In this document: piece after piece, positions 21,523 to 44,309 of the stretch | Position numbering within the stretch: the stretch's first letter is position 1 | Layout of the letters: each line of letters begins with the position of its first letter | Source: Metabacillus indicus LMG 22858 | GTDB lineage: Bacteria > Bacillota > Bacilli > Bacillales > Bacillaceae | Reading direction: 5' to 3' | DNA length: 55,126 bases | Assembly: GCF_000708755.2 (NCBI RefSeq) | Contig: NZ_JGVU02000003.1 | Span: 1 to 55,126 of the forward strand | Notes under the pieces: model-generated | Databases searched by the model: none | The model's input: the letters and a program-made list of their open reading frames with translations, nothing else | What the model was told of the DNA's origin: nothing | Made by a program: the position numbers and the translations under genes

Positions 21523-22476
21523 ATGTCAAATCGTTATGCAGATTCAAATTTAAAGATTTTTACATTAAACTCAAACACTGCTTTGGCTCAGGAAATTGCA
21601 GATGAAGTCGGTGTTGATTTAGGTAAATGTTCGGTAACACGCTTCAGTGACGGCGAAGTTCAGATCAACATTGAAGAAAGTATCCGCGGCTGTGATGTTT
21701 TTGTCATTCAGTCTACGAGTGCTCCGGTAAATGAGCACCTGATGGAAGTTCTGATCATGATTGATGCGTTAAAGCGTGCTTCTGCAAAAACAATCAACAT
21801 TGTTATGCCTTATTACGGATATGCTCGCCAGGACCGCAAAGCCCGTGCACGCGAACCGATTACAGCTAAGCTTGTTGCAAACCTCCTTGAGACAGCAGGA
21901 GCGGACCGAGTAATTACTCTTGACCTGCACGCTCCTCAAATTCAAGGTTTCTTTGACATTTTAATTGACCATTTAATGGGTGTTCCAATTCTTGCTGAGT
22001 ACTTCCAGGAGAAAGACCTTAAGGATATCGTCATTGTTTCTCCTGACCACGGCGGAGTAACCCGCGCCCGCAAACTTGCTGACCGTCTGAAAGCGCCGAT
22101 TGCCATTATTGATAAACGCCGCCCAAGACCGAATGTTGCGGAAGTCATGAACATTGTCGGTAACATCGAAGGCAAAACAGCCATTTTGATCGACGACATC
22201 ATCGACACAGCCGGAACAATCACTCTTGCTGCAAATGCACTAGTAGAAAACGGCGCGACAGATGTATACGCGTGCTGTACGCACCCTGTACTTTCAGGAC
22301 CGGCCATCGAACGCATTCAAAACTCAAATATTAAAGAACTTGTAGTAACAAACTCTATTGCTCTCGGCGAAGAGAAAAAGATCGACAAGCTTAAGCAGCT
22401 TTCTGTTGCACCGCTTATCGGTGAAGCCATCATTCGTGTACACGAAGAGCAATCTGTTTCTACTTTGTTTGATTGA
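21523..22476 (+). CDS. prs: Ribose-phosphate pyrophosphokinase
   Basis: A 317-residue class I PRPP synthetase. It transfers pyrophosphate from ATP to ribose-5-phosphate, feeding purine, pyrimidine, histidine, tryptophan and NAD synthesis. Visible are [16 protein letters not shown], the ATP/Mg region [12 protein letters not shown], the catalytic flexible loop [12 protein letters not shown] and the PRPP loop [14 protein letters not shown] 21523 lies 12 bases after GTGGAGG (21504-21510). It ends in a terminator and is probably co-transcribed with glmU, as in B. subtilis. Confidence 0.97.
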
Positions 22477-22485
22477 TCATTGCAG

Positions 22486-22516
22486 CCCCTTCTGCTTAGA
22501 GCAGGAGGGGTTTTTT
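22486..22516 (+). terminator. prs terminator
   Basis: CCCCTTCTGC (22486-22495) pairs with GCAGGAGGGG (22501-22510, one G·U), followed by T6. Confidence 0.93.
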
Positions 22517-22649
22517 ATTCAGCTGTACACTTACAAACCCGGAGCATTATAACTTGAAAAACACCTTGATCTTCGTTTAAAATACATACTGATCTTTGCT
22601 TAAGGGCTCATTTCAGCCAGGGGAAAACAATCCTTTTCATAAGAAAAAT

Positions 22650-22675
22650 GTTTAGACCCATTCAATAATGGGAAT
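22650..22675 (+). promoter_or_regulatory. Sigma-B-type promoter of ctc
   Basis: GTTTAG (22650-22655), a 14-bp spacer and GGGAAT (22670-22675), close to GTTTAA and GGGTAT. ctc is a classic sigma-B stress gene in B. subtilis. Confidence 0.75.
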
Positions 22676-22716
22676 TAAATAAGACATAACTTATCGTTAG
22701 GAAGGTGTTTTGGACT

Positions 22717-23367
22717 ATGACAACTCTAAAAGTAAAAGAACGTACAGTATTTACGAACTCGGCGAGAAGAAAGGTCCGCGAAGAAGGACAAGTTCCCGCT
22801 GTGATTTACGGTAAAACAACAGAACCTAAATCTATTTCATTAGATAGCATAGAATTAATTAAAACGCTGCGCGACGAAGGCCGCAACGCAATTATTAAAC
22901 TGGATCTTGACGGAAAGTCCCATTCTGTCATGCTGTATGAAATGCAGACGGATCCGCTTAAAAACGAAATCACTCATGCAGATTTCTACGTTGTTAACAT
23001 GAAAGAGGATGTAGAAGTCGATGTGCCGATCACTCTTACTGGAGATGCACAGGGAGTCAAGGACGGCGGCGTGCTGCAGCAGCCTCTGTACCAGGCTTCC
23101 ATCACAGCCAAACCGGGTGAAATCCCTCAGACAATTGAGGTTGATATTTCAGAGCTTGGCGTAAATGACACGCTGACAATCGGCGATGTGAAGATCTCGG
23201 GCAAATACTCATTCAACCATGAAAAGGACGAGGTCGTTGCTTCTATTCTTCCTCCTCAGCAGGAAGAGGAAATCGACAGCGGTGAGGAGCAGGAGCCTGG
23301 AGAGCCTGAGAATGCTGAAGGCAGAGAAAACGAAGAGGATGCTGCTGAAGGCGAAAAACAAGAGTAA
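22717..23367 (+). CDS. ctc: General stress protein Ctc, ribosomal protein bL25 (TL5 family)
   Basis: A 216-residue two-domain bL25 protein that binds 5S rRNA in the ribosome under stress. The N-terminal L25 barrel has RKVREEGQVPAVIYGK; the C-terminal TL5 domain includes PITLTGDAQGVKDGG. The last 35 or so residues are a very acidic Glu-rich tail (EEIDSGEEQEPGEPE), longer than I recall in B. subtilis (about 204 residues in total). ATG 22717 follows GGAAGGTG (22700-22707). Confidence 0.95.
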   Translation: MTTLKVKERTVFTNSARRKVREEGQVPAVIYGKTTEPKSISLDSIELIKTLRDEGRNAIIKLDLDGKSHSVMLYEMQTDPLKNEITHADFYVVNMKEDVEVDVPITLTGDAQGVKDGGVLQQPLYQASITAKPGEIPQTIEVDISELGVNDTLTIGDVKISGKYSFNHEKDEVVASILPPQQEEEIDSGEEQEPGEPENAEGRENEEDAAEGEKQE

Positions 23368-23371
23368 ATTA

Positions 23372-23402
23372 AAAACGCAGCCGTTTAATGGCTGCGTTTT
23401 TT
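23372..23402 (+). terminator. ctc terminator
   Basis: AAAACGCAGCC (23372-23382) pairs with GGCTGCGTTTT (23390-23400). Confidence 0.93.
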
Positions 23403-23559
23403 ATGGTATTGTTGAACTGAAGACACATTGAAAATGACGGCAGCCTGATCTTAGAAGCTCGGGGCTTCATTGGCGCCTGATTTTAAACATAAGGTCCTTC
23501 CGGATGGATGGGCATACTGACAAAGAGCCGTTTGGCTTAAAGAATGGGCAGGTACAATC

Positions 23560-24117
23560 ATGAAACTTTTCATTGGACTCGGAAATCCGGGAAAACAATA
23601 TGAAAACACACGTCATAACGTAGGCTTTATCGCGATTGACGAGCTTTCCAGACGGTTCGGCATCCCTCTTGACCGCACGAAATTTAACGGGATTTACGGA
23701 ATGGGGCATGTTTCGGGAGAGAAAGTCATATTATTAAAACCACTTACCTACATGAATCTCTCCGGTGAATGCATCAGGCCGTTAATGGACTATTATGAGA
23801 TCGATGACCAGGATCTCGCCGTCATCTATGATGACCTAGATCTGCCGGCAGGGAAGGTCAGACTGAGAACAAAAGGGAGTGCCGGGGGACATAACGGAAT
23901 CAAGTCGATGATCCAGCATTTGAATACACAGGAATTCAACCGCGTGAGAATCGGGATCGACCGTCCCTCAGGAGGGATGAGTGTATCCAATTACGTGCTT
24001 GGCTCTTTTGGAAAAGAAGAGTGGCCGAGCATTCAGGATGCAGTCGCTCTTTCTGCAGATGCATGCGAGAGTTTTATTAAAGAGCCTTTCCTTCAAGTGA
24101 TGAACAAATACAATTGA
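23560..24117 (+). CDS. pth: Peptidyl-tRNA hydrolase
   Basis: A 185-residue Pth (SpoVC in B. subtilis), which frees tRNA from peptides dropped by stalled ribosomes and is essential. Family motifs are [18 protein letters not shown] with catalytic His20, [24 protein letters not shown] and [14 protein letters not shown] 23560 gives the family start [11 protein letters not shown]; a weak GCAGGT lies upstream. Whether it is transcribed from its own promoter is unclear, since ctc ends in a strong terminator 160 bp before. Confidence 0.96.
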
Positions 24118-24121
24118 TTTA

Positions 24122-24150
24122 GTATAAGCGCCCCCCTGAAGGTTCATACT
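24122..24150 (+). promoter_or_regulatory. Sigma-F-type promoter of fin
   Basis: GTATA (24122-24126), a 15-bp spacer, then GTTCATACT (24142-24150), matching GnnnAnAnT with one deviation from GGnnAnAnT. The spacer equals that at csfB. fin is a known sigma-F gene in B. subtilis. The predicted start is near 24157. Confidence 0.55.
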
Positions 24151-24176
24151 GTAACTAAAACCTTTCCAGGAGGGGC
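24130..24176 (+). promoter_or_regulatory. Hairpin sequestering the fin ribosome-binding site
   Basis: Bases 24130-24144 pair with 24159-24176 over 15 bp (GCCCC/GGGGC, CCTG/CAGG, AAGGTT/AACCTT) with two small bulges and a 14-base loop. CCAGGAGGGG, the Shine-Dalgarno region of fin, lies wholly in the 3' arm. No T-run follows, so it is not a terminator. The 5' arm overlaps the promoter and is absent from mRNA started at about 24157. Confidence 0.6.
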
Positions 24177-24180
24177 TAAA

Positions 24181-24411
24181 ATGGCGCTACACTATACATG
24201 CCGCCATTGCGGCGTTAAGGTCGGAACAATTGAGAGCGTTTCAGTATACAGCGAGCAATTGGGTTTTCAGCACCTGTCGCAGGAAGAGAGACGAGAGATG
24301 ATCTCCTATGAACAAAATGGCGATATTCAAGTAAAAACCATCTGCGAGGATTGTCAGGAAGCGCTCGAACGCAATCCGGACTATCACCAGCTGCAGCGAT
24401 TTATTCAATAA
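24181..24411 (+). CDS. fin: Anti-sigma-F factor Fin
   Basis: A 76-residue zinc-binding protein (YabK). It has two Cys pairs, CRHC near the N terminus and CEDC about 50 residues later, which should bind zinc. In B. subtilis Fin is made in the forespore, binds sigma-F and helps switch to sigma-G. ATG 24181 follows CCAGGAGGGG at 7 bases. The upstream hairpin and sigma-F-like promoter imply that only forespore-initiated mRNA is translated well. It sits between pth and mfd, as in B. subtilis. Confidence 0.93.
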
Positions 24412-24549
24412 GCGACGCTTTGGCTTTGTTATGAAGTCAAGGCATTTTTCTGTTAGTTGGCAGGCAGGGAGAAAGACGGCAGAATCCCTGTCCTGCTTCA
24501 TTCGGATAGATAAACGGCTGAAACACTGCCGAACGGGGAGGTTCCACTT

Positions 24550-27500
24550 TTGCAAAGTTTGCAGCATTACTTTTATGAAAATGATGATTTTCAAACCATC
24601 TTACAGGGGATACAGGGAGGGTTAAAGGAGCAGCTTGTTGCAGGGCTCTCGGGGTCTGCACGCTCTTTGTTCACTTCTTCGCTCTTTAAGCATGCAGACA
24701 AACCGCTCCTTGTGATCACCCATAACCTTTTTCAGGCTCAGAAAATTTATGAGGACCTGACGAACCTTGCCGGCGATCAGGTGCTTCTCTACCCAGTTAA
24801 CGAACTCATTGCATCTGAGCTTGCGATAGCAAGCCCTGAGCTTAAAGCGCAGCGTATGGATGTTTTAAACCAGCTTTCAGAAGATAAAAAGAGAGTGGTT
24901 GTTGCACCGATTGCGGCACTGAGACGATTTTTGCCGCCAAAAGAAGAATGGAAAAGAAATCAGTTTCACCTAAAGCTCGGTCAGGATCTTGACCTGGATG
25001 AAATTCTCGCCTCTTTGGTGACAATGGGTTACGCGAGGGCCGGTATGGTTTCTTCGCCGGGTGAGTTCAGTCTGCGCGGAGGGATTATCGACATATATCC
25101 GCTGACAGAAGAGTATCCTGTCCGCATCGAGCTGTTTGATACAGAAATCGATTCAATCCGCACTTTTAACAGCGAAGATCAGCGTTCGATTGAAAAATTG
25201 AAAGAGATCCATATAGGACCAGCAGAAGAGCTTGTTGTTAACGGGGAGCGAATCAAGAAATGCATTGAAAAGCTGGAACAGGCGCTTGCATACAGCCTGA
25301 AACGCCTTAAAGACGATAAGCAAAAAGAAATACTTGCTGAAAATATCGGATATGAGCTTGAACAGCTCAGAAACGGTCAGTTTAATCAGGAAATGGTGAA
25401 ATATCTCACCTTCTTCTATGAGCAGCCTGCTAGTTTACTAGATTATTTTCCGGAGCAGACCATTGTTGTAATGGATGAGATCAGCCGGATACAGGAAATG
25501 TATGAGAGTCTTGAAAAAGAAGAGGCAGACTGGTATACAAGCCTGCTTGAGCACGGGAAGATCGTGAACAATATCAAGCTTTCGCACGACTATTCAGATG
25601 TGCTTACAAAGACGAAGCATCCGCTGGTCTATCTCTCTCTATTTGTGCGCCACGTCCCGCATACCAGCCCTCAGAACATTCTTAATGTCTCGTGCAAGCA
25701 GATGCAGAATTTCCACGGGCAGATGAATGTGCTGAGAAGTGAAATTGAACGCTGGAAGAAAGCGAATTTTTCCGTCGTTTTCCTTGGCGCAACAGAAGAG
25801 CGGGTCAAAAAGCTTGAAGCTGTTTTAGGTGACTACGAAATTAATGCTGCCTTTTTAAAGAAAAATGAGACACCCAAGCTTGGCAATCTGTACATGATGG
25901 AGGGCGACCTTCAGACAGGCTTTGAACTCCCGATGCAAAAACTTGCAGTCGTAACGGAGGAGGAGCTGTTTAAGAAGAGGGTCAAAAAGCAGCCGAGAAG
26001 CCAGAAAATCTCGAATGCTGAACGAATTAAAAGCTATTCAGAGCTTCAGGTCGGCGACCATGTCGTGCATGTCAATCACGGGATCGGGAAGTACCTCGGA
26101 ATTGAAACGCTTGTCATCAACGGCGTTCACAAGGATTATCTTCACATCCGCTATCAGGGAAGCGACAAGCTGTATGTTCCTGTTGAGCAAATTGACCTTA
26201 TCCAGAAATATGTTGGATCAGAAGGCAAAGAGCCTAAGATTTATAAACTTGGCGGCAGTGACTGGAAGCGTGTAAAACGGAAGGTTGAATCGTCTGTACA
26301 GGATATCGCAGATGATTTGATCAAGCTTTATGCTGAGCGTGAAGCAAGCGTTGGGTACGGATTTTCACCTGACAGCGAAATGCAGCGCGAGTTTGAAGCC
26401 GCTTTCCCTTATCAGGAAACCGATGATCAGCTTCGCTCCATTCATGAAATTAAACATGATATGGAACGGGAACGCCCGATGGACCGGCTGTTGTGCGGAG
26501 ACGTGGGCTATGGAAAGACGGAGGTTGCCATCAGGGCTGCCTTTAAAGCGGTTGCTGACGGCAAACAGGTCGCACTGCTTGTACCTACGACCATTCTTGC
26601 CCAGCAGCACTATGAAACAGTCCGTGAGCGTTTTCAGGACTATCCCATTAATATCGGTCTGTTAAGCAGATTCAAAACGAGAAAAGAGATGAATGAAACC
26701 GTAAAAGGTCTTAAAAACGGAACGGTGGATATGGTAATAGGTACCCACCGCCTTCTTTCAAAAGACGTGCTGTATAAAGAGCTTGGGCTCCTCATCATTG
26801 ACGAGGAACAGCGTTTTGGCGTGACGCATAAAGAAAAAATCAAGCAGATGAAAGCCAACATTGACGTACTTACGCTTACGGCTACACCAATTCCGCGGAC
26901 GCTTCACATGTCCATGCTCGGAGTGCGTGATTTGTCTGTAATTGAAACGCCGCCTGAAAACAGGTTTCCGGTTCAGACGTATGTCGTTGAATACAACGGC
27001 GGTTTTGTCCGCGAAGCCATCGAGCGGGAACTTGCACGCGGCGGACAGGTCTATTTCCTCTATAACAGAGTGGATGATATTGACCGTAAAGCAGATGAGA
27101 TTTCCATGCTTGTTCCTGACGCAAGGGTGACCTATGCACACGGGAAAATGACGGAAAATGAACTTGAGTCAACCATGCTTAATTTCCTTGACGGACAATT
27201 TGATGTGCTTGTCAGTACGACGATTATTGAAACCGGCGTTGATATTCCAAATGTAAATACGCTGATTGTCCATGATGCAGACAAGATGGGCCTCTCTCAG
27301 CTCTATCAGCTTAGAGGCCGGGTCGGACGTTCAAGCAGAATTGCCTATGCATATTTCACTTACCGGAAAGATAAAGTTCTGACAGAGGTGGCAGAGAAAC
27401 GTCTGCAGGCGATCAAAGAATTTACGGAGCTTGGTTCAGGCTTTAAAATTGCCATGCGGGACCTCTCCATCCGCGGAGCTGGAAATCTGCTTGGTGCCCA

Positions 27501-32338: not shown

Positions 32339-32367
32339 TTCTATTTTGCCTCCCTTTCTCATAGAAA
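32339..32367 (+). promoter_or_regulatory. Sigma-E-type promoter of yabP-yabQ
   Basis: TTCTATT (32339-32345), a 14-bp spacer and CATAGAAA (32360-32367) resemble the sigma-E elements kmATATT and CATACAnT with mismatches. yabP and yabQ are sigma-E genes in B. subtilis. Confidence 0.4.
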
Positions 32368-32406
32368 TAGATAAGAATATTTCTAAGAAGAATGCGGGGG
32401 CTGGCT

Positions 32407-32712
32407 ATGAATCAATATTATGACAATGGATCACAGTCTAAAGGAACCATCCAGGAGCATGACGTGATTATGAGAGGCCGCAAGCTGCTGGACATCACAG
32501 GCGTAACCCATGTAGAAAGTTTTGACAACGAAGAGTTTCTTCTTGAGACGGTCATGGGCGCACTTGCCATTCGCGGGGAAAATCTGCAAATGAAAAACCT
32601 GGATGTCGACAAAGGCATTGTCTCCATCAAAGGGAGAGTTTTTGACCTTGTCTACCTAGATGACCAACAGACGGAGAAAGCTAAAGGGCTCTTTAGCAAG
32701 TTGTTTAAATGA
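32407..32712 (+). CDS. yabP: Sporulation protein YabP
   Basis: A 101-residue YabP/YqfC-family protein with EHDVIMRGRKLLDITGV, VESFDNEEFLLET and KNLDVDKGIVSIKGRV. In B. subtilis it is made in the mother cell and is needed for spore formation, probably for the cortex, with unknown mechanism. ATG 32407 gives the family start MNQYY. The ribosome-binding site is poor (GCGGGGG). The frame extends 5 codons upstream to 32392. It overlaps yabQ by 4 bp (ATGA). Confidence 0.94.
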   Translation: MNQYYDNGSQSKGTIQEHDVIMRGRKLLDITGVTHVESFDNEEFLLETVMGALAIRGENLQMKNLDVDKGIVSIKGRVFDLVYLDDQQTEKAKGLFSKLFK

Positions 32713-43541: not shown

Positions 43542-44309
43542 ATGTTTTTAGTGCTGGATGTAGGGAATACAAATACCGTTTTAGGCGTTTTTGAAGGAGA
43601 TGCTCTCAAGCATCACTGGCGCATTGAGACGACGCGCAACAAAACAGAAGATGAATTTGGCATGCTCATCAAATCCCTCTTTGAACATGAAGGCATTCAT
43701 CTGACCGATATTAAAGGAATCATTATCTCCTCTGTTGTTCCGCCGATTATGTTCTCGCTTGAGCGGATGTGCACGAAATATTTCAAACAAAAGCCCCTCG
43801 TTGTCGGACCTGGCATCAAGACAGGCTTGAACATTAAATATGAGAATCCCCGTGAAGTAGGTGCAGACCGGATTGTAAATGCGGTGGCAGGCATCCATTT
43901 ATACGGCGGTCCTCTGATTATTGTTGATTTTGGCACAGCGACGACCTACTGCTATATTAACGAGGAAAAACAATATATGGGCGGCGCCATTGCTCCGGGC
44001 ATCAATATCTCAACCGAGGCTCTCTATTCGAGGGCAGCCAAGCTTCCAAGAATCGAAATTGCACGACCTGATGATATTATCGGCAAAAATACGGTCAGCG
44101 CTATGCAGGCGGGCATTCTTTATGGGTATGTCGGACAGGTTGAAGGTATTGTCGGGAGAATGAAACAGCAGTCTAAAGCAGAGCCTAAGGTTATTGCAAC
44201 AGGAGGACTTTCAACGCTGATCGCTTCTGAGTCGAAGGTGATTGACATCGTTGATCCGTTCCTCACATTAAAAGGGCTTCAGCTGATTTTTGAACGAAAC
44301 AGCATTTAA
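43542..44309 (+). CDS. coaX: Type III pantothenate kinase
   Basis: A 255-residue ASKHA-fold kinase for the first step of coenzyme A synthesis. Signature motifs are [14 protein letters not shown] (phosphate 1), [12 protein letters not shown] (phosphate 2), the pantothenate-binding [10 protein letters not shown] and GGAIAPGI, and VIATGGLS (adenosine). ATG 43542 matches the family start and follows AAGTGGTGAT; the frame to 43500 has no better start. Type III kinases are not inhibited by CoA. hslO follows at 18 bp. Confidence 0.96.

Follow-up and report, generated by a model that had tools for sequence, protein, structure and literature searches.

Promoter-derived RNA as a probable insulator of fin translation from pth read-through in Bacillales

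Introduction

Genes for sporulation and stress responses are often embedded in housekeeping operons, yet the question why leaky transcription from the upstream genes yields none of their products is rarely raised. In phage T4, the ribosome binding site (RBS) of the lysozyme gene (gene e) is closed as long as the RNA stems from early read-through, whereas RNA from the late promoter leaves it open. In yeast, the long undecoded transcript isoforms (LUTIs), i.e., 5'-extended mRNAs from an upstream promoter, remain untranslated. The closest described system is sigG (spoIIIG) of B. subtilis, for which a hairpin of at least 20 bp has been proposed to stop translation of read-through RNA; this hairpin cannot form when transcription begins at the sigma-F/G promoter of sigG itself (PMC5942855).

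Here, a candidate mask of this kind is described for fin, the gene of the anti-sigma-F factor Fin. A full-text literature search, whose coverage leaves most subscription journals outside, returned no read-through hairpin for fin, ctc or yabP in the titles or abstract openings among the matches listed. The fin mask is new here, and its recurrence beyond fin and sigG is a novel possibility.

Organization of the pth-fin locus

The window, i.e., the whole stretch of DNA that was analyzed, comprises 55,126 nt of Metabacillus indicus LMG 22858 and carries the gene order ctc-pth-fin-mfd-spoVT on its + strand. The pth-fin region exhibits the following features:

23560..24117, + strand: pth (spoVC), peptidyl-tRNA hydrolase (PF01195, E 7.1e-71; TIGR00447)
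24122..24126, + strand: promoter -35 element of sigma-F/G type, GTATA (from the window sequence)
24130..24144, + strand: predicted 5' arm of the mask, within the promoter spacer and present in read-through RNA only (from the fold)
24145..24150, + strand: promoter -10 hexamer CATACT, 18 nt after the -35 element, with GGTT (24141-24144) just before it
24157, + strand: site at which the sporulation mRNA is predicted to start (by convention, 12 nt from the start of the -10 hexamer)
24159..24176, + strand: predicted 3' arm of the mask, including the Shine-Dalgarno sequence (from the fold)
24168..24175, + strand: fin Shine-Dalgarno sequence AGGAGGGG (its core has a probability of 0.71 of pairing with bases 5' of the predicted start)
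24181..24411, + strand: fin, anti-sigma-F factor Fin, 76 aa (PF10955, E 9.6e-37; NF053765)
24417..24443, + strand: terminator-like site 3' of fin (terminator call)

The fin product scores 125.5 bits against PF10955, for which the cut-off is 23.7, and its gene is flanked by pth and mfd. An Rfam scan of positions 22400-24600 returned two matches, both below the gathering score and neither within 24122-24184. A reading of the fin hairpin as a terminator or attenuator was dropped because the stem is followed by UAAAAUGG rather than by a U run, and no terminator was called there.

In the proposed mechanism, the stretch between pth and fin would act twice. As DNA, it would be the sigma-F/sigma-G promoter of fin. 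As part of the read-through RNA that the housekeeping gene pth would supply into fin, its promoter spacer and -10 region would pair with the fin Shine-Dalgarno sequence, or with the start codon in some clades, and ribosomes would be kept off. The forespore transcript would start inside the loop of the hairpin and hence lack the 5' arm, so that fin would be translated. In this way Fin, an antagonist of early sigma factors that binds RNA polymerase and whose presence would be harmful during growth, would not be produced from housekeeping read-through. We infer that the read-through RNA is abundant, that the sporulation mRNA starts near 24157 and that the two RNAs differ in translation in vivo, and the mask may confine Fin to the forespore, as the first-pass annotation of the window had proposed.

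Pairing potential of the fin leader in the window

Folding reproduced the 15-bp hairpin that had been described from the sequence, with positions 24130-24144 pairing with 24159-24176 and an energy of -19.7 kcal/mol for the hairpin alone. On the 3' side, the pairing falls into the blocks 24159-24164, 24167-24170 and 24172-24176, with bulges at 24165-24166 and 24171, and the loop of 14 nt extends from 24145 to 24158. The initial description of the whole Shine-Dalgarno sequence as buried was slightly too strong: its core pairs with pre-start bases, i.e., bases upstream of the predicted transcription start, with a probability of 0.71, and in longer stretches the minimum free energy structure takes an alternative pairing that leaves the sequence partly in a bulge. 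Likewise, the 5' arm was thought to overlap the -10 element. This applies to the upstream GG (24141-24142), which we take to be part of the sigma-F -10 motif, while the hexamer itself lies in the loop just past the arm. As the arm is situated 5' of the -10 box, with its last base (24144) 13 nt short of the predicted start, it would be excluded from mRNA of fin's own promoter, and no such pairing would form there.

The expectation of a closed long and an open short RNA is borne out in energy only. Opening the region from the Shine-Dalgarno sequence to the AUG costs 13.4 kcal/mol in the long and 7.7 kcal/mol in the short RNA, but the mean probability of the Shine-Dalgarno core being unpaired is alike in both (0.29 and 0.28, respectively). 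Consequently, only the opening cost differs, and the difference is not all or none. With the RNA 5' end placed at 24100, 24118 or 24122, the cost is 13.4 kcal/mol; it amounts to 14.4 kcal/mol at 24060, 17.3 at 24130 and 10.2 at 24134, and ranges from 6.4 to 8.2 kcal/mol for nine further 5' ends spread over 24138-24163. Since the cost is low for all nine, the contrast between long and short RNA is independent of the exact start.

Taken as a lone sequence, the fin hairpin gives a modest signal. When a 73-nt stretch was shuffled 200 times, 13 versions folded equally well, as did 4 of 200 for a 131-nt stretch. Of 60 candidate gene starts across the window, ranked by how much the opening cost rises, fin is seventh. 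A start at 43921, which outranks fin, sits within a longer reading frame according to our own reading of the sequence. The decision rests on cross-species tests rather than on the lone fold.

Conservation of gene order and promoter

A total of 235 fin loci were gathered from the window, the best 80 of 182 genome matches, 30 family-level and 24 new order-level loci and 100 chosen stretches, and yielded 180 distinct upstream regions. The family-level search found fin in 79 of 80 genomes and the order-level search in 363 of 397. The sole genome without a Fin match among the 80 of the family, G047, belongs to the genus of the window and is 93% complete.

In all 180 distinct loci, pth is located immediately 5' of fin and a sigma-F/G-type promoter lies upstream of fin, and a terminator-like site separates the two genes in only three. 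The promoter score threshold was reached by 6 of 900 shuffles. The promoter is near fin in 177 loci, all of which fit GnATA-N17-19-nAnAnT; the spacer is 18 nt long in 173 of them and the -10 hexamer reads CATACT or TATACT in 134. The remaining three loci, whose promoter is situated 151-197 nt upstream, were excluded from the folding set, and the 177 regions were grouped into 83 sequence clusters. A promoter pattern search in the window's genome was not selective (10 matches vs. 16 in a reversed control), and its pattern does not fit the window's own fin promoter, which ends in CATACTG.

Two outcomes that would speak against the proposed mask were looked for. The first was a transcript start 5' of 24130; the sigma-F/G-type promoters conserved in all 180 loci place predicted initiation 3' of the 5' arm. 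The second was the absence of pairing among close relatives; the members of the window's cluster that were folded singly (L002, L135, L138 and L139; L003 is not among these) all retain the hairpin. In the literature, yabK is listed in the SigF regulon table of one study (PMC13118988), Fin is described as being under partial sigma-G control in another (PMC5942855), and the available portion of a third does not mention yabK (PMC9931155).

Complementarity beyond the shared motifs

Across the 83 clusters, the mean cost of opening the region from the Shine-Dalgarno sequence to the AUG is 12.92 kcal/mol in native read-through RNA and 6.49 kcal/mol in RNA from the predicted start. Replacing the upstream half by that of another cluster lowers the mean cost to 8.89 kcal/mol, and shuffling the spacer with the promoter boxes kept lowers it to 9.25 kcal/mol. 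In 76 of 83 clusters, the native cost is above the chimera average (p = 3.5e-14), though it exceeds 90% of the cluster's own chimeras in only 45 and all of them in 15. The arms themselves behave alike: the duplex energy is -17.98 kcal/mol for native and -12.67 kcal/mol for swapped arms, with none of 20,000 permutations equaling the native set, and for ten window-like clusters the values are -19.2 and -15.9 kcal/mol, again with none of 20,000 permutations as good. Hence, pre-start and start regions are complementary in a species-specific manner that goes beyond the shared motifs. Per alignment column, the pairing excess between spacer and Shine-Dalgarno sequence is small, with 0.051 on the top antidiagonal but 0.04 on two shorter antidiagonals as well; this analysis used 129 of 177 rows, as 44 of the 173 rows with an 18-nt spacer were too short in the leader.

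The register of the pairing slides between clades. Consistent with retention across the order, 76 of 83 clusters pair the Shine-Dalgarno sequence or the AUG with pre-start bases at a probability above 0.5 (the Shine-Dalgarno core in 68, the AUG in 32), and neither is masked to this degree in seven. Eight Bacillus loci, which we label subtilis-, pumilus- or licheniformis-like partly on our own account, pair the AUG with pre-start bases (probability at least 0.98 in seven, 0.49 in one). In the subtilis- and pumilus-like loci displayed, the partner is the -10 box, and in L027 (B. sonorensis) it is the promoter spacer. Geobacillus-type loci (L007-L015 in part) and L026 carry a self-folding insert between the start site and the Shine-Dalgarno sequence with the mask arms still paired. 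For the promoter arm of L037, the only partners are bases past the Shine-Dalgarno core, which itself pairs inside the insert. Of 12 duplexes displayed, that of L213 is the stablest at -27.5 kcal/mol; its promoter, from the -35 element onward, forms 20 pairs with the leader and start region.

The fin mask is not one conserved structure. The compensatory changes that had been suggested as a check were scarcely seen: RNAalifold found no consensus pairs in MAFFT alignments of 24 and 66 rows, and eight pairs with one double change in an alignment of 13 rows. From alignment A1, 17 of the 83 clusters were omitted owing to spacer or leader length. We think that RNAalifold fails because the register slides, and still count the outcome as negative. 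As column covariation is missing, the claim rests on the swap and shuffle tests. Selection appears to preserve the logic of masking rather than individual pairs.

Predicted masking at sigG and at neighboring genes

For sigG, 28 of 30 loci were used (one start was not found and one locus had no promoter score). The opening cost is 15.2 kcal/mol in the long, 5.6 in the short and 9.5 in shuffled RNA, and lies above the shuffles in 27 of 28 loci. In the sigG loci (L246-L275), the 5' arm is located in the promoter spacer, often as TTTTTCCCTCC and alike across genera; the spacer is 17 nt long in 29 loci listed.

As controls, the starts of pth and mfd in the same genomes showed no masking excess (28 and 29 clusters), with mfd slightly reversed (p = 0.046). 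The ctc gene, in contrast, did show an excess, with 19 of 26 clusters above the chimera (p = 6e-4), and a survey of neighboring genes was therefore carried out. It covered 21 consecutive genes of the window in the window and 40 further 20-kb stretches, and 20 genes with at least eight orthologues were tested, the rsmA-like gene having exactly eight; yabR (n = 5, mean excess 2.3) was omitted. Apart from ctc, pth, fin, mfd, spoVT and yabP, the gene labels are assumed from synteny.

Among the 20 genes, in up to 41 genomes, three stand out. Relative to shuffled upstream sequence, the excess is 3.66 kcal/mol for fin (n = 41, p = 2.9e-8; over chimeras p = 7e-8), 3.47 kcal/mol for ctc (n = 41, p = 2.4e-7; 34 of 41 above; over chimeras p = 7e-6) and 4.22 kcal/mol for yabP (n = 41, p = 3.2e-8; 36 of 41 above; over chimeras p = 6e-5). 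The excess of yabQ over shuffles (1.33 kcal/mol, p = 2e-4) does not extend to chimeras (p = 0.58), and the other sixteen genes range from -0.68 to +0.62 kcal/mol. In the 41 genomes, the starts of spoVT (p = 1e-4) and mfd (p = 0.015) are slightly more open than shuffled, opposite to fin.

A terminator-like site is found upstream of fin in none, of yabP in two, of ctc in nine and of mfd in 36 of 41 genomes. For ctc, the mask is weaker where such a site is present (mean excess 1.67 vs. 3.97 kcal/mol; one-sided p = 0.043, uncorrected for phylogeny). The window's own ctc (leader 22600-22740) is unmasked, and a terminator-like site follows prs at 22484-22512. A sigma-B-like GTTTA...GGG pattern was identified 5' of ctc in 59 of the 91 loci with a ctc match; the ctc locus analysis used only these 59. 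In ctc folds, the arms lie around a sigma-B-like promoter. We take the promoters of ctc and yabP to be recognized by sigma-B and sigma-E, respectively.

The yabP gene was chosen for its third rank in the window and was then tested in other genomes. In a separate set of 30 loci, the window included, the excess was again observed over both shuffles (p = 1.6e-5) and chimeras (p = 5e-4). Its candidate mask arms in the window pair about 32348-32354 with 32395-32401, upstream of the yabP start at 32407, and many of 14 folds displayed have differing arms against the Shine-Dalgarno sequence, e.g., CCGAATTCTAAT with ATTAGAATTCGG in L370.

No masking of spoVT, presumably a forespore gene, was detected in the survey or in the set accompanying yabP, despite a terminator-like site upstream in just 2 of 41 genomes. 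For gin (csfB), of which 20 of 30 loci passed the promoter filter, the native cost of 6.8 kcal/mol compares with 6.6 for shuffled (p = 0.55) and 5.6 for chimeric sequence (native higher, p = 0.033), and the gene was counted as unmasked. Both spoVT and gin, which is not above its shuffles, speak against a simple masking rule.

Discussion

The comparison across genomes argues that the pairing of pre-start bases with the fin Shine-Dalgarno sequence is probably a selected insulation of fin translation from pth read-through, and we hold this reading with good confidence. It has to be weighed against three others. First, the hairpin could be an element for RNase processing or stability that splits the pth and fin mRNAs, with masking being incidental. 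It does lie between cistrons that mostly lack a terminator, and cleavage in its loop, which holds the start region, would unmask fin as well. However, the excess cost of opening the Shine-Dalgarno-to-AUG region and the shift of the target from Shine-Dalgarno sequence to start codon between clades fit selection on translation rather than on cleavage, and the closely spaced purR-, prs- and divIC-like neighbors show no excess, which makes this explanation unlikely. Second, the hairpin might merely damp Fin translation in every transcript, as the small RBS hairpin of sigG would, with read-through being irrelevant. In keeping with this, the short RNA of the window retains the 7.7 kcal/mol given above; yet the 5' arm is absent from the promoter's own mRNA as predicted, and the short-form cost of fin in the survey (6.3 kcal/mol) falls within the range of 3.8-6.8 kcal/mol of yabQ and the 16 unmasked genes, so that damping is very improbable. 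Third, a by-product of DNA constraint, i.e., chance pairing of promoter box, pyrimidine-rich spacer and purine-rich Shine-Dalgarno sequence or an inverted repeat for a DNA-binding protein, would suit two strongly conserved and partly complementary motifs, the weak single-sequence signal and the small per-column excess, but is equally hard to credit, as chimeras retain both motifs and lose 4 kcal/mol on average, no swap in 20,000 equals the native arms, and the arms, unlike a site bound by a protein, have sequences that vary freely from clade to clade.

Selected insulation may extend beyond fin. In the general form, genes of alternative sigma factors behind terminator-less housekeeping genes throughout the Bacillales would carry an anti-Shine-Dalgarno arm inside their promoter. 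Read-through mRNA would thereby be silent from the outset, and translation would be reserved for mRNA with the correct start. Such a device, with a sliding register and a tendency to fade at genes preceded by a terminator, would recur at fin, sigG, ctc and yabP, and the balance of our judgment tips slightly in its favor. Provided that its recurrence at ctc, yabP and sigG has a function, bacterial operons could be read with a simple rule that lends itself to searching, and mRNA abundance across such genes would not imply protein. The masking of fin, ctc and yabP is open to reporter tests in B. subtilis.

The arrangement proposed for sigG is found again at fin: an internal promoter of its own behind a gene without terminator (promoter in 180/180 loci, terminator-like site in 3/180), a Shine-Dalgarno sequence or AUG that pairs upstream of the start site (76/83 clusters), and a 5' arm that lies within the promoter spacer, as in the two sigG folds displayed. 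These likenesses support the view that fin would join sigG as a read-through-masked gene, a logic with a direct precedent in the same regulatory network. The two genes differ in that the sigG arms are similar enough across genera for chimeras to be masked still (13.6 kcal/mol), whereas the fin arms diverge and their register slides. Moreover, the upstream unit is a sporulation operon (spoIIGA-sigE) for sigG and a housekeeping gene for fin, and the mRNA of sigG itself has a second, small RBS hairpin. Gene e of T4, unlike fin, is a phage gene under a different polymerase program. In yeast LUTIs, silencing is exerted by uORFs, whereas fin would use pairing with promoter-derived RNA.
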